Of a DNA stretch of 39,025 nt, positions 9,175-16,664 are shown piece after piece. The stretch comes from Spirochaetes bacterium GWE1_32_154. Its GTDB lineage: Bacteria > Spirochaetota > GWE2-31-10. Both the position numbers and the translations under genes were made by a program. Position 1 is the stretch's first letter; each line of letters opens with the position of its first letter. The DNA lies in contig MIAY01000020.1 of the NCBI GenBank assembly GCA_001829315.1, forward strand, positions 1 to 39,025, in the 5' to 3' direction. The notes below the pieces were generated by a model. That model was not told the origin of the DNA. It did no database searches and saw only the letters and a program-made list of their open reading frames with translations.

Positions 9175-10176
9175 TTAAATTTTTTCTCTTTCATTAATTT
9201 CTTTTAATGCATTTATTATTTCAATATCCCAGAATCCTTTTTTATATTCCTCATACAATATATCAAAAGCCGTATCAAAGGAAAGTGCATCTCTATACAC
9301 TCTTTTTGATGTAAGCGCATCAAAAACATCGGCAACCGAAACAATTTGAACTTCTATTGGAAGGTCATTTCTTTTTAACCCGTCAGGATAACCTGAACCA
9401 TCAAGTTTTTCATGATGACTTCGTATTATACCAAGATATGGCTGGAAAGTTTTTAAATTAAGACATATATTATAACCATAAACAGAATGATTTTTAATTT
9501 CTGAGAATTCCGGTGCCGTTAATCCTCCGGTTTTCAATAAAACTGAATCACGAACACCGATTTTACCAATATCATGAAGTAGAGCCCCTTGTCTTATAAT
9601 CTCTATTTTTTGCTTATCAAGTTTTAAATGCTGAGCAATATGTTCAGCAATATTAGAAACTCTTTCTGAATGACCTCGTGTGTATACATCACGGATTTCA
9701 ATTGTATAGAGAAGGGAATCAATAAATACCTGTATTGTTTCAAAATCTCTTAAATTTTCAATTCTTCTGATAAAATTATATATTTTCAGACGTAGAATAT
9801 CATTATTCACCGGTTTTGGAATAAAATCAACTATTTGATTAATAAAAATACGGTTTAAATCATTTGCATTTTCTGTTGTTGACATACAAATAATTGGAAT
9901 AGTTTCAGCATATTTTTTAATTAACTCAAGACTTGTAGTATGTTGAAAATAAAAATCTATAAGGAGAATATCAGGTTTTGTTACTTTAATTTTAATTTCA
10001 AGTTCTTCAAGAGTATTAAATACTATAGTGGTAAAGCCGTTCTCTCTGAGGTTGGCATCAAGTATTGAACAGATAACTTTAGAATCATCTGCTATATAAA
10101 TAACAATATTTTTAGCATAGTTTACAATTGTCCGGCTACATTGTTTTTCCCATAATTGTGCAATAGTATGCATCAT
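9175..10176 (-). CDS. Response regulator with HD-GYP c-di-GMP phosphodiesterase domain
   Basis: This 333-residue cytoplasmic protein should hydrolyse c-di-GMP under control of a phosphorylated receiver. The receiver (about 22-135) is intact: acidic pair D30-D31 (IADDS), phosphoacceptor D74 (LLIDFYF), Ser in ICMSTT and K121 (FIPKP). The HD-GYP domain (about 150-325) has GHSERV (168-173), HD201-202 in HDIGKIGV, HHEKLDGSGYP (254-264) and ADVFDALTSKRVYR. All expected metal and GYP residues are present. ATG follows GGGAG. It is transcribed divergently from the che operon and has the only complete receiver there, so I infer it is the phosphorylation target of the neighbouring CheA. A sigma-54-like site lies upstream. 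Confidence 0.93.
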   Translation of the reverse strand: MMHTIAQLWEKQCSRTIVNYAKNIVIYIADDSKVICSILDANLRENGFTTIVFNTLEELEIKIKVTKPDILLIDFYFQHTTSLELIKKYAETIPIICMSTTENANDLNRIFINQIVDFIPKPVNNDILRLKIYNFIRRIENLRDFETIQVFIDSLLYTIEIRDVYTRGHSERVSNIAEHIAQHLKLDKQKIEIIRQGALLHDIGKIGVRDSVLLKTGGLTAPEFSEIKNHSVYGYNICLNLKTFQPYLGIIRSHHEKLDGSGYPDGLKRNDLPIEVQIVSVADVFDALTSKRVYRDALSFDTAFDILYEEYKKGFWDIEIINALKEINEREKI

Positions 10177-10460: not shown

Positions 10461-12404
10461 ATGAAAAATGAAAATTTATTTATGGAAATTACAAATATCA
10501 TACTCAAGTATGAAAATGGGGATTTACTTGCATTATCATCACTATCAGATTTAATATACAATTTAAAAAACATAACCACTGACAATAGTTTAATACCGTA
10601 TATTGATGAAACAATTGAGGTTATTAAATATGGAATAAAAGAAGACAATTATGAAACATTCACGAAGGAGCTGTCAAAAAGAGTTGACTATATACAAAAT
10701 AGAATGGTTACCGAAATATTATTTACTGAAAAAAAATCAACACCGGTTGAAAAAATAGTGGAAATTGAAAAGATGCAAGGCGTATCAGATGAACTTATTA
10801 ATATTTTCATTGTCGAAGCAGAAGATAGAATTGCAAATGCTCAAAGATTAATACTTGAACTGGAAAACTCTTTATCGAATAGCGAAATTATTGATAATTT
10901 ATTTCAGATTTTCCATACAATTAAAGGTGAATGCGGATTTTTAAAAATTGAAACATTTGGTAATCTTACACATTCAATTGAACATATACTTGATTTATTA
11001 CGAAACAAAAAAATCGAAATTAATTCAAATGTAATTGACCGTTTACTTGAAGGTGTAGATTTATCAACCTCTATAATCTGGTATTTAAAAAAAGGAATCC
11101 TTTCATTACCGGATACTTCAGCCATAGAAGAATATTTAAAAAATATTGAACTGATAAAAAAATCTTCAGTTAATCCGCATATAATTATACAAGAGAAAAA
11201 AGATGAAGTCTTATACAAACACGAAAAAAAAGATGAACTTATAAAAGTTAAATCATCAAAGGTCAATTATATTGTTGATATGATTGGAGAATTACTGATC
11301 GCTAGCGGACAGATAGCCGATAACTCTGTTGCAGTTATTCAAACACGAAAAATAACAAAACTGCTTCAATACGCCGGTATGCAATTAAGAACAGAAAGTA
11401 TCAAAACATTATTTGGCAGTGCAAAAAGAATGGTACGTGATATATCACAAAAATTAAATAAAGTTGTCAGTATTGATGTATTTGGAGATGATCTTGAAAT
11501 TGATAGAAACCTTATAGAAAGCCTTGAGGAACCGATGATGCATCTTCTTCGCAATGCAATTCACCACGGCATTGAGAATGAAAGTGACAGATTGTTACAC
11601 GGGAAACCGGCATCAGGTCACATCACTATTGGAGCAGAACGAAAAGGAAATAACATCGTTATTTCAATTAAAGATGATGGTCAAGGACTTAATAAAAATA
11701 AAATAATTTCCAAGGCTTTGGAAAAGGGATTTATTAAACAAAACGAAATAGAAAGTTCATCAGACAATCAAATTTATAATATGATTTTTTTAAACGGTTT
11801 TTCCACCACTGATTCAGTTGATTTGGTTTCAGGACGTGGTGTTGGTATGAATATTGTAAAATCTGTTGTTGAGGCTCATAAAGGACGAATTGAAATACTG
11901 ACGGAGTCTAATAAATACTCACAATTTATGCTTAAATTTCCACTATCTACTGCAATTATTGATGGTATGATAGTAAGAATTGAAGATTCATTATTTATTA
12001 TCCCGATTTCATCTATGATTGAATCAATTAAATGTAATCCTATTAATATTCATCCGGTAAATACAATTTCGATTTATAAACTTCGTGATGAAATATTCCC
12101 GATAATTGATTTGAAAAAAATACTGGGTATAGATCAGGTTGATGGAAAAAACGATATTGGTATTGTTGTAGAAAGTTCTACAACGAAACGATTTCTTCTT
12201 AAAGTTGACGAAATAATAGCGAAAAAAGAAATAGTAATTAAATCACTTGGGAGTACATTTAAAAAACTGCAAGGGATCTCTTCAGGATGTGTTTTGTCCG
12301 GCGGTAAAATAGGATTTGTTTTTGATATTGATCAGATTGTTGAAATAAGTAAAGCATCTAATGAAGAAAATGTAGCAATAAAAGCTTCATTATGGCGCTC
12401 ATAA
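10461..12404 (+). CDS. cheA: Chemotaxis histidine kinase CheA without a P2 domain
   Basis: This 647-residue kinase autophosphorylates in response to receptor signals. Residues 1-100 form an extra helical region I cannot name. The Hpt (P1) domain at about 107-205 carries H152 in FHTIKGECGF. Only about 55 low-complexity, charged residues separate P1 from the P3 dimerisation helices (about 263-330), so there is no room for a P2 domain. The ATPase has HLLRNAIHHGIE (N365), DDGQGL (405-410), GFSTTD and GRGVGM (458-463). A CheW-like P5 domain occupies about 500-632. ATG 10461 has GAAGGAG 7 bases upstream. It is the first gene of a six-gene operon behind the sigma-54-type site. The missing P2 suggests phosphotransfer without CheY/CheB docking. 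Confidence 0.95.
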   Translation: MKNENLFMEITNIILKYENGDLLALSSLSDLIYNLKNITTDNSLIPYIDETIEVIKYGIKEDNYETFTKELSKRVDYIQNRMVTEILFTEKKSTPVEKIVEIEKMQGVSDELINIFIVEAEDRIANAQRLILELENSLSNSEIIDNLFQIFHTIKGECGFLKIETFGNLTHSIEHILDLLRNKKIEINSNVIDRLLEGVDLSTSIIWYLKKGILSLPDTSAIEEYLKNIELIKKSSVNPHIIIQEKKDEVLYKHEKKDELIKVKSSKVNYIVDMIGELLIASGQIADNSVAVIQTRKITKLLQYAGMQLRTESIKTLFGSAKRMVRDISQKLNKVVSIDVFGDDLEIDRNLIESLEEPMMHLLRNAIHHGIENESDRLLHGKPASGHITIGAERKGNNIVISIKDDGQGLNKNKIISKALEKGFIKQNEIESSSDNQIYNMIFLNGFSTTDSVDLVSGRGVGMNIVKSVVEAHKGRIEILTESNKYSQFMLKFPLSTAIIDGMIVRIEDSLFIIPISSMIESIKCNPINIHPVNTISIYKLRDEIFPIIDLKKILGIDQVDGKNDIGIVVESSTTKRFLLKVDEIIAKKEIVIKSLGSTFKKLQGISSGCVLSGGKIGFVFDIDQIVEISKASNEENVAIKASLWRS

Positions 12405-12734
12405 ATGAATAAAATAATAGATTCAATGAAAACAATAAGTAACTCAATAGAACATATTTTAAAAATTATAGATACAATGGATGACATTGCCGTTGAAACA
12501 AATAAGATTTCACTTGAGGCATCATTTGAGGTCAATCATGCTGGAGAAGCTATGCTTGGTGTCGTTACCGTTACCGATGAACTAAAAAAACTTGCTGACG
12601 AAGGCATGGAAACTGCAAAAAATGCATCAGACAAAATGGATACAATAATAAAAAAAGCTCACATCGGATTGGAAATATCAAAAGAATTATCTGATGTGTT
12701 TAAAAAGATAATTGATACATCTGATGATGTATAA
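12405..12734 (+). CDS. MCP signalling-hairpin microprotein (receptor tip only)
   Basis: These 109 residues align without gaps to the cytoplasmic signalling hairpin of the MCP encoded at 13318; by eye 37 of 92 positions are identical. There is no membrane segment, sensor or methylation-helix N-terminus. The tip reads DIAVETNKISLEASFEVNHA where a normal receptor has [17 protein letters not shown]. The residues equivalent to Tsr F373, N381 and R388 are therefore Val, Glu and His, while E385 is kept. The ATG directly abuts the cheA TAA, is in the same frame as cheA, and has no clear Shine-Dalgarno, so translation would need reinitiation or readthrough. It may be a decoy or adaptor for CheA/CheW arrays. 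A decaying receptor fragment is the alternative. Confidence 0.7.
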   Translation: MNKIIDSMKTISNSIEHILKIIDTMDDIAVETNKISLEASFEVNHAGEAMLGVVTVTDELKKLADEGMETAKNASDKMDTIIKKAHIGLEISKELSDVFKKIIDTSDDV

Positions 12735-12786: not shown

Positions 12787-13299
12787 ATGGAAATCAAAAA
12801 AAGAAAAAGACTTACTGATTCCCGATTTTTAAGTTTTATCATCGAGAATGAAGTTTACTGCATTGATATATTAAAAGTGAAAGAAATTCTTGGTATAACC
12901 ATTATTTCACCGGTTCCACAAACACCGGATTATATTAAAGGTGTCATCAATTTAAGGGGACAAATTATTCCAATCATAGATTTACGTTTAAAGTTTGGTA
13001 TGGAATTAAAAGAATATACAAAAAGAACAAGTATTATTGTCATAGAAATTTCTTATGACGATGAATTGACACATATGGGTGTCATAGTTGACAGTATTCA
13101 GGAAGTGATTTGCATTCCTGAAGACACTATTTCTAAAGTATCGTACATTAATGGGAAAATTCAAACCAATTTCATCAAAGGCATTGCTAATACTAATACC
13201 GGAATTATTATTGTTCTTAATGTTGTTGAAATTTTAAATGAAAATGAAAAGAAATTAATAAAATCTGTAGAAGATACAGTCGAACTAAATCAGAATTAA
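12787..13299 (+). CDS. cheW: CheW chemotaxis coupling protein
   Basis: This 170-residue adaptor links CheA P5 to receptors. The CheW domain is complete: RFLSFIIENEVYCIDILKVKEI, then PDYIKGVINLRGQIIPIIDLRLKFGM, then MGVIVDSIQEV and the C-terminal FIKGIANTNTGIIIVLNVVEIL. The start is ATG 12787, where AAGGAG is 7 bases away; the GTG at 12781 is too close to that site. It is 52 bases after the microprotein and 18 before the mcp gene. Confidence 0.95.
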   Translation: MEIKKRKRLTDSRFLSFIIENEVYCIDILKVKEILGITIISPVPQTPDYIKGVINLRGQIIPIIDLRLKFGMELKEYTKRTSIIVIEISYDDELTHMGVIVDSIQEVICIPEDTISKVSYINGKIQTNFIKGIANTNTGIIIVLNVVEILNENEKKLIKSVEDTVELNQN

Positions 13300-13317: not shown

Positions 13318-14805
13318 ATGAAATTACATTTAAGGACAAAATTACTATCAGGTTTTATGGCTATTACACTATTCGGTTTAATAATCGGAATAGTAGGAAT
13401 AGTGAATATGAAAAAAATTGCAGATACCGGAACATTTCTCTATAAAAAAACAACAGTTCCTCTTGAATATACCATTACAATCTCAACTAATTTTCACCGA
13501 ATACAAATCAATTTGTATAAACTTTTTTTTACGTCGAGCAAAACAGAACAAATTGAATTATCAAATATAATTAATACTCTATCCAAAGAAATAGATGTGA
13601 ATATACAACAATTTCAAACAACATATGTTACTGAAAACGGAAAAACTGTAATGGATGAATTTATCAAATCAAAAGCGATCTTAATTGCAGGTTCACAAAA
13701 TGTAATAAAACTTATTAATCAAGGTGGAAATAATCGGGCAATCTCGTTTCTAAAAAACGAACTTCAGGACACTATAGAATTATTACGTGAACAAATTGAT
13801 TCACTTATTCTACAAAAAACAGAATTCGCAAAAGAGACGTCAGATCATAATATAGAAACAGTAGAAAAAGCATTAATATTAATGATCGCTATTATTACCG
13901 CCGGTTTTATTCTTTCCATACTATTGGCACTGGTTTTTGGTATATTTATAATATCCCGACCAATTATGACCATAACAAGAGAACTGGCTTCCGGTTCATT
14001 ACAAATTTCATCTGCATCATCTCAGTTATCAATTGCAGCTCAAAACATGGCGAGCGGATCCATCGAACAAGCATCGGGAGTTGAAGAAACATCAGCATCA
14101 ATTGAAGAACTTGTTTCCATGACGAAGCAAAATCTTGAAAATCTTCGTTCATCTAATCAACTGGCTATAAAAACATCAGAAGTATCTGAAACAGGATTTA
14201 AAGAAATGGCAGTCATGCTTAATTCAATGTTAGAAATAGGAAAATCATCAGATGATATAATTAATATAATTGATATCATTGAAGATATCGCATTTCAAAC
14301 AAATATGCTTGCTTTAAATGCCTCTGTTGAAGCTGCTCGTGCCGGTGAAACCGGAATGGGTTTTGCAGTCGTTGCAGATGAAGTTAAAAATCTAGCAAAT
14401 AGAAGTGCCGATTCGGCAAAAAACACATCAAAAATAATAAAAGAATCAATTGTAAAAATAAATGCCGGCACGGAATCTGCCAAAAAACTAAGTGAATTTT
14501 TTAAGGAAATAGTCAACAACGCTAATTCATTGTCAATAATCACAAAAGAGGTAGAAAAAGCGAGTAAAGAACAGGATCTTGGAATTGATCAAATAAATCG
14601 TGCGATTATACAATTTGATTCTGTTATTCAAAAAAATGCGGCTATTTCTGAAGAAACAGCCGGTGCAGCAGAGGAACTGGAATCTCAAGTTGAAGCACTT
14701 AATGATATGGTAAAAAAACTATTTCTCGTTATAACCGGAAAAAAAACTGAAATAGCACAATCAAATATCAATAATAGTAGATTTCTATTACCTCCTGAAT
14801 TATAG
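13318..14805 (+). CDS. Methyl-accepting chemotaxis protein, apparently HAMP-less
   Basis: This 495-residue receptor has a first membrane segment at about 10-30 and a periplasmic helical bundle of about 155 residues, similar in size to 4HB sensors. The second membrane segment is at about 185-212. The sequence passes from [12 protein letters not shown] into the methylation helix ([19 protein letters not shown]) with too little length for a full HAMP. The tip is canonical, with [20 protein letters not shown]. It ends LLPPEL with no CheR-binding pentapeptide. ATG follows AAGAGGAG. As the only receptor in the operon it is the likely input to this CheA. Confidence 0.93.
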
Positions 14806-14820
14806 AAAACGGGTGTATAT

Positions 14821-15597
14821 ATGAATACTCAAATAACGAAGGATTTTAAAGATATTATTTATCATGAATTTGGTATAAATTTTTCAGTTGAAAAGAATTT
14901 TCTATTAGAGTGTAAAATAAAAAGATTGATTCAAAAAGAAGAATATAAAAGTATTGAGGATTTTTATAAAATAATCAAATCAGGTGAAAAGAATTCAATG
15001 GAAATTCTGATTAAATACATTACAACCAATCATACTTTTTTCTTTAGAGAAAAGGATCATCTTGATAAACTTTCAGAATTAATTCTTAAAAGTACAATTA
15101 AATGTCCTGTTATATGGTGTGCTGCCAGTTCAAGCGGAGAAGAAGTGTATTCAATAATCATTTCATTACTTGAAAATGACATAAAAAATTTTTTAATAAT
15201 TGCTTCTGATATCAATAATAATGTTCTTCAGAAAATGCATAAAGGGATTTACAATATAGGCCGGTTATTCGAAACCAGCCCCTCCATAAAGGCTAAATAT
15301 TTTAAAAAAATCGATGACACACACTATCAGATTCGTCCTGACTTACGTAATTTTATCAGTATAAAAAAAATAAACCTTATTAATCCAATGTATTTTGTAA
15401 GTCAATTTGATTATATTTTTTGTAAAAACGTATTAATCTATTTTGATAGTGAAACTCAGAAAAAAGCAATTAAAAATATAATGGTAAATCTCAAAGTTGG
15501 CGGATTTTTATTTATCGGGCATACAGAAACTTTACTTAATACAAAAATGAATGTAGAAAAAGAATCAAATTCGGTATACAAATATTTAGGAGCTTGA
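14821..15597 (+). CDS. cheR: CheR receptor methyltransferase
   Basis: This 258-residue enzyme methylates receptor glutamates using S-adenosylmethionine. Family blocks are present in order: TTNHTFFFREKDHL (about 60-73), the SAM loop WCAASSSGEEVYSI (about 99-112), ASDINNNVLQKMHKGIY, FDYIFCKNVLIYFD and FIGHTETL. Thr-Asn-His replaces the more usual Thr-Asn-Glu in the first block. The ribosome site is weak (GGGTG). It is followed closely by cheB. Confidence 0.94.
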   Translation: MNTQITKDFKDIIYHEFGINFSVEKNFLLECKIKRLIQKEEYKSIEDFYKIIKSGEKNSMEILIKYITTNHTFFFREKDHLDKLSELILKSTIKCPVIWCAASSSGEEVYSIIISLLENDIKNFLIIASDINNNVLQKMHKGIYNIGRLFETSPSIKAKYFKKIDDTHYQIRPDLRNFISIKKINLINPMYFVSQFDYIFCKNVLIYFDSETQKKAIKNIMVNLKVGGFLFIGHTETLLNTKMNVEKESNSVYKYLGA

Positions 15598-15599
15598 GC

Positions 15600-16664
15600 A
15601 TGAGTACAATTAATGTGTTATTAATAGATCGCTCTGAACACATACTAAAGCTACTGTCAAGACGATTGTCTGTACATCCTGATATCAGAATCATTGGGAC
15701 TGCAAATGACCCGTATCAGGCACGAAAGATTATTGAACACAAAAAAGTTGATATTATTGTCATGGAAACAAAATTACCCCGGATGAACGGATTAACATTT
15801 ATTAAATATTTAATGAAATACAATCCGATTTCTGTAATCATTCTCAGTTCAAAAGTATACAAAAATGCAGTAATTACTAAGAAAGCAATAGATTTAGGGG
15901 TTGTTGATATAATACCTAAACAATGCGGATTTTTTAGTATTAAGAAAACGATAATGAAACTTATCAAACAAATTGAAATTATCAAAAATGATAATTTCAA
16001 TTCAATTCGAATGTTTTTAGAGAAGAAAAATAATAATGCATTTATTATTCAGCAATTATTATATAAAAAAAAAATAGATTTAATGAATAAAATAATAGTC
16101 ATTGGAACTTCAACCGGCGGAACAACCGCTCTGGAAACATTATTTAAAGAATTTGACAATAATTTTCCAGCAACACTCGTTGTTATCCACATGCCCAAAG
16201 AATTTACCCGGTCATTTGCAAACCGCTTAAATATGAGTTCTTCTATTACAATAAAAGAAGCTGAAAACGGGGAAAAAGTAGTTCCGGCTACAGTTTACCT
16301 CGCAGCAGGCGGATATCACATGACTATAGAAATTGTCAAAAATTGTAAATATATAAAACTTACAGATGGGCCTAAAGTTTTTAACCAGCGACCTGCTGTT
16401 GATATATTATTTAATTCTGTTGCCCAAATATGTCAGAAAGATACCATTGGCATCCTTCTGACCGGTATGGGTAAAGACGGGGCTGAAGGGTTACTATCGA
16501 TCAAAAACAATGGCGGTTACACAATTGCCGAAGACGAAAAATCCTGTGTCATATTTGGTATGCCAAAAGAAGCAATGGAGTTGGGAGCAGTAACAGCTCT
16601 TTTACCTTTATCAAAAATAACACAACACGTAAAATCTCTGTTAAAAATACAGAAGTCCTCTTGA
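15600..16664 (+). CDS. cheB: CheB methylesterase with a Glu-substituted receiver
   Basis: This 354-residue protein joins a receiver (about 4-125) to a methylesterase (about 163-350) that removes receptor methyl groups and deamidates glutamines. The esterase triad is intact: S171 in GTSTGG, H197 in VIHMP and D293 in GMGKDGAEG. In the receiver, the phosphoacceptor position reads E56 (VMETKLPRMNG) instead of Asp, and the acidic pair is D10-R11; K107 remains. It therefore cannot be phosphorylated in the normal way and may be locked on. ATG 15600 has AGGAG 7 bases upstream; an in-frame TTG at 15594 overlaps the cheR stop. The last gene of the operon, its stop lies inside a hairpin. Confidence 0.94.
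   Translation: MSTINVLLIDRSEHILKLLSRRLSVHPDIRIIGTANDPYQARKIIEHKKVDIIVMETKLPRMNGLTFIKYLMKYNPISVIILSSKVYKNAVITKKAIDLGVVDIIPKQCGFFSIKKTIMKLIKQIEIIKNDNFNSIRMFLEKKNNNAFIIQQLLYKKKIDLMNKIIVIGTSTGGTTALETLFKEFDNNFPATLVVIHMPKEFTRSFANRLNMSSSITIKEAENGEKVVPATVYLAAGGYHMTIEIVKNCKYIKLTDGPKVFNQRPAVDILFNSVAQICQKDTIGILLTGMGKDGAEGLLSIKNNGGYTIAEDEKSCVIFGMPKEAMELGAVTALLPLSKITQHVKSLLKIQKSS

Follow-up and report, generated by a model that had tools for sequence, protein, structure and literature searches.

Immediately behind cheA in a chemotaxis cluster of the window (contig C20, the whole stretch of 39,025 bases analysed here, from a genome assembly of 4.03 Mb in 43 contigs), a 109-codon ORF encodes an isolated MCP signalling tip. 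FlaA genes scoring well over the Pfam cut-off occur in this genome and in 0/14 control genomes, which suggests a spirochaete. Its substitution pattern argues for constraint at the protein level, making the term microprotein defensible, and the ORF is probably, if modestly so, a kept protein rather than pure debris. It is most likely the stump left when a rearrangement removed the rest of an mcp. Our preferred explanation as a whole, in which this stump was kept, is coupled to cheA and pairs with receptor helices, has about an even chance of being right.

The cluster is ordered cheA, ORF, cheW, MCP, cheR, cheB, and cheY is absent (Table 1). The ORF opens at ATG 12405, with zero spacing to the cheA TAA (12402-12404), and closes after 109 codons with TAA at 12732-12734. 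A sequence-only reading had described a TAA-ATG junction in one frame without a Shine-Dalgarno, and the DNA bears this out: no such site occurs in the 30 nt before the ORF. GGAG precedes each of the cheA, cheW and mcp genes of the cluster. No terminator-like site was found between cheA and cheW, and we infer that translation of the ORF is coupled to cheA termination.

Table 1 Features of the window's che cluster and its flank
Feature	Position	Strand	Basis
Receiver-HD-GYP gene, divergent from cheA, flanks cluster	9175..10176	-	Pfam; paralogous cluster has it too
cheA (Hpt, HATPase_c, CheW-like domains)	10461..12404	+	ORF call, Pfam
cheA TAA / ORF ATG abutment	12402..12407	+	Sequence; without Shine-Dalgarno
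MCP-tip ORF, 109 aa (microprotein candidate)	12405..12734	+	Open frame, Pfam MCPsignal, gap-free hairpin alignment, conserved second codon positions
cheW, own Shine-Dalgarno AAGGAG before ATG 12787	12787..13299	+	ORF call, Pfam, sequence
Full-length membrane MCP (4HB_MCP_1 + MCPsignal)	13318..14805	+	ORF call, Pfam
cheR	14821..15597	+	Pfam
cheB, altered receiver phosphorylation site	15594..16664	+	Pfam, comparison

Two neighbouring genes deserve mention in their own right. In the CheB receiver, Glu replaces the phospho-acceptor Asp of three compared relatives and the acidic pair has Arg in second place; the CheB segments with the methylesterase active site look intact. The receiver-HD-GYP gene of the window is 71% identical to that of the paralogous cluster (L040 11237-12238, +) and could be an output for a che system that lacks cheY.

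The ORF was earlier taken for a soluble copy of an MCP signalling hairpin with its length preserved, and the comparisons agree. Residues 1-90 match positions 18-107 of 172 in the Pfam MCPsignal profile (PF00015; 7.5e-14, 52.4 bits, curated cut-off 34.6), and among solved structures the ORF product comes closest to MCP signalling domains such as Tsr 1qu7. All 109 residues align without a gap to the receptor hairpins of eight relatives (five other receptors of the same genome and receptors from genomes G008, G354 and G366), and hydrophobic positions are retained at 28/33. The similarity begins at a Met that all eight relatives share and covers the whole ORF; neither the cheA tail nor the spacer 3' of the ORF has any that could be detected. 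An extension into the cheA tail that had been seen by eye (AIKAS vs AIKTS) was rejected, its alignment scores being no higher than those of shuffles. With 109 residues only, the ORF has neither the sensor or membrane region nor the full signalling domain with adaptation helices that define a chemoreceptor.

The tip itself is altered. In Tsr numbering (ORF position + 343), the replacements F373->V30, N381->E38 and R388->H45 are as the sequence-only reading gave them, and I377->K34, V398->T55, G393->M50 and F396->V53 are changed as well, while the equivalents of E385, G390, E391, G395 and E402 are kept. Across 38 receptor hairpins (37 from this genome and one from G008), just 7 have F at position 373 and 17 have H at position 388; both positions vary among own-genome receptors, so their changes are not special and carry less weight than the sequence-only reading gave them. 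N381, G393 and F396 are invariant in 38/38 of the hairpins, and their replacement by Glu, Met and Val is exceptional; among the four invariant tip residues N381, G390, G393 and F396, the ORF keeps G390 alone. Of the five published trimer contacts, which we take to be Tsr F373, N381, E385, R388 and V398, four are changed and the Glu is kept, two of the changes (373 and 388) being ordinary in this genome. Those contacts come from an alignment of five residues (Phe, Asn, Glu, Arg, Val) with the trimer contacts of Tsr and Tar (PMC8466855).

Other che clusters are laid out differently behind cheA. On contig C1, the order in the paralogous cluster is cheA, transmembrane (TM) receptor-like gene, cheY, MCP, cheW, cheR, cheB, and the same divergent HD-GYP gene is present; the G354 and G366 clusters read cheA, TM receptor-like gene, cheY, cheW, MCP, cheR, cheB; and a short contig of G008 carries cheA, cheY, cheW and MCP. 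In G354 and G366 the next gene begins before the cheA stop and overlaps it; in C1 it begins ~26 nt beyond that stop. Both the TM receptor-like gene and cheY of these three clusters are absent from the window cluster. The TM receptor-like protein (~423-443 residues; L040 7590-8897, -; L092 5986-7257, +; L093 9180-10511, -) is conserved and follows cheA in three clusters. Its tip is degenerate in part and its C-terminus conserved, and beyond MCPsignal no family scores over its Pfam cut-off. Descent of the ORF from this gene was rejected, at 14 bits against 74 bits to ordinary MCPs. The ORF is nearest to the MCP of the C1 cluster (44% amino acid identity, gap-free), and we therefore favour an mcp stump over a remnant of the TM receptor-like gene. 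In the simplest history, an mcp would have stood behind cheY and ahead of cheW, the C1 arrangement, the stretch behind cheA would have been lost, and the tip part alone would have survived. Breakpoint remnants or homology of such a rearrangement were sought and none is recognisable, which counts against our preferred explanation, as do the single genome, the lack of orthologs and the lack of a Shine-Dalgarno.

Natural chemoreceptor proteins consisting of the tip only are rare. Of the 43 receptor-like matches in the genome, the ORF is the sole tip-only frame, the others all lying in frames of >350 codons; in five further genomes, 0/127 hairpin matches are tip-only, all lying in frames of >270 codons except for one 155-codon frame at a contig end. 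Neither 393 genomes of the phylum nor a GTDB r220 scan yielded an ortholog; the GTDB scan returned just two distant matches titled Arcobacter and Cupriavidus (27-37% identity). Viral contigs held no relatives, and no small tip-only frame lay beside cheA in ~30 further cheA loci, each taken with 1.5 kb of flanking sequence. A review of CheA domain architectures leaves a receptor domain unmentioned, and a literature search for tip-only receptors or CheA-receptor fusions gave no close match. The sequence-only reading had foreseen that absence of the ORF after cheA in relatives would point to a decaying fragment. This held in part: no ortholog turned up in relatives, but their clusters have another layout, so the absence shows a lineage-specific origin rather than decay.

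Decay is nonetheless the strongest alternative: the ORF could be a now functionless mcp fragment, still open since its truncation was fairly recent, with its divergence gathered earlier in a longer receptor that was divergent already. We consider this a substantial possibility, somewhat short of even, as it accommodates the occurrence in a single genome, the absent ribosome-binding site, the truncation at both ends, the loss of otherwise invariant tip residues, and a cluster altered throughout, with cheY and the receptor-like gene missing and the CheB phosphorylation site changed. It sits poorly with the three exceptional tip changes, which occur in 0/38 hairpins; a functional long receptor with such a tip is not in evidence. 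Since those residues are otherwise invariant, the pattern suggests, short of proof, that the sequence had already ceased to work as a receptor tip when much of its divergence arose. Internal stops, moreover, occur in no receptor-like match of this genome or of the five others.

Neutral decay since loss of the tip constraint fits the substitutions poorly. Identity to the C1 MCP at codon positions 1/2/3 is 0.60/0.77/0.47, and the corresponding values for cheB of the window and C1 clusters are 0.69/0.78/0.48, the second positions of the ORF being about as conserved as those of cheB. Although 22/51 residues invariant in the eight relatives are changed and both ends are truncated, the 109 codons contain no stops, gaps or frameshifts relative to intact relatives. 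When receptor DNA was evolved neutrally until 22 invariant residues had changed, with indels uncounted, the frame stayed stop-free in 5-8% of runs, the changes were as conservative as those of the ORF in 3-6%, and both held in 0.3-0.8%. A codon model written for this analysis rejected a neutral foreground branch (2 lnL difference 9.3) over a span that does not separate the time before truncation from the time after. Synonymous sites are near saturation in this comparison and omega is therefore not estimable. Part of the ORF branch may predate the truncation, and the constraint signal may date from when the fragment belonged to a longer receptor.

Under the preferred reading of a kept mcp stump, the fragment would have remained between cheA and cheW after the rearrangement and been retained as a small helical protein. 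Ribosomes finishing cheA on a cheA-cheW-mcp-cheR-cheB message would restart at the abutting ATG, and the product would retain a receptor tip's hydrophobic pattern without membrane segments, methylation helices or most trimer contacts. Single-sequence AlphaFold2 gave one long straight helix (mean pLDDT 90.8, pTM 0.42; the other four models at pLDDT 65-76), and the corresponding stretch of the MCP encoded in the window turns at residues 48-50 (mean pLDDT 65.9, pTM low). The long-helix model and the Met at the invariant turn glycine hint, at low confidence, that the hairpin may be weakened. The product is predicted to pair as a coiled coil with receptor helices of the second, specialised che system, an action we put forward tentatively and think unlikely in itself, and would thereby temper or space that array; canonical CheA/CheW docking would be less likely. 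It is a slightly longer shot that the cheA-coupled microprotein replaced the membrane receptor-like partner and now regulates the second array by coiled coil without canonical contacts.

A variant within the same kept-microprotein reading, akin to the decoy or adaptor for the CheA-CheW lattice that the sequence-only reading suggested, makes the product a dominant-negative decoy that binds CheA and CheW like a receptor tip and titrates both. Thermotoga receptor tip fragments of ~85-90 residues occur in solved entries 4jpb and 3ur1, presumably CheA/CheW complexes, and the equivalents of E391 and E402 are kept. The changes I377->Lys, N381->Glu, V398->Thr and G393->Met stand against it, with most trimer-contact positions altered and canonical docking thereby argued against, as does the predicted straight helix in place of the canonical hairpin turn, both models having low pTM; we regard a decoy as improbable. 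Read-through of the cheA stop into a CheA-receptor-tip fusion, which had been offered as another option and would put the tip on the kinase itself, is unsupported and very improbable: coding is uninterrupted on either side of the TAA and the cheA C-terminal tail exceeds that of the paralog by ~8-10 residues, but genes that abut with zero spacing necessarily share a frame, the RNA near the stop shows no unusual structure (z -0.22) and the tail is without receptor similarity.

If made and kept, the ORF product would offer the cell a simple means of adjusting the make-up of its array at a constant ratio to CheA. It resembles the MCP signalling domain (PF00015) in family match, gap-free hairpin alignment and conserved hydrophobic pattern, but consists of the tip only, without sensor, TM, HAMP or methylation helices and with N381, G393 and F396 replaced. 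The TM receptor-like gene of C1, G354 and G366 shares its post-cheA slot, MCPsignal domain and partly degenerate tip, yet encodes a far longer protein with membrane segments and a conserved C-terminus and differs in the hairpin (14 vs 74 bits). Soluble single-chain MCP signalling domains occur in several genomes (PMC4692393), and these and Thermotoga Tm14 (3g67, 3g6b) likewise have a signalling domain without a membrane anchor. They carry a complete signalling domain (the 3g67 chain has 213 aa) or two per chain, whereas the ORF is a single tip segment of 109 residues whose contacts are altered. Nearest in extent are the fragments in 4jpb and 3ur1, which are constructs for structure work with canonical contacts; the ORF is genomic with its contacts changed and, if made and kept, would be the natural counterpart of such fragments.
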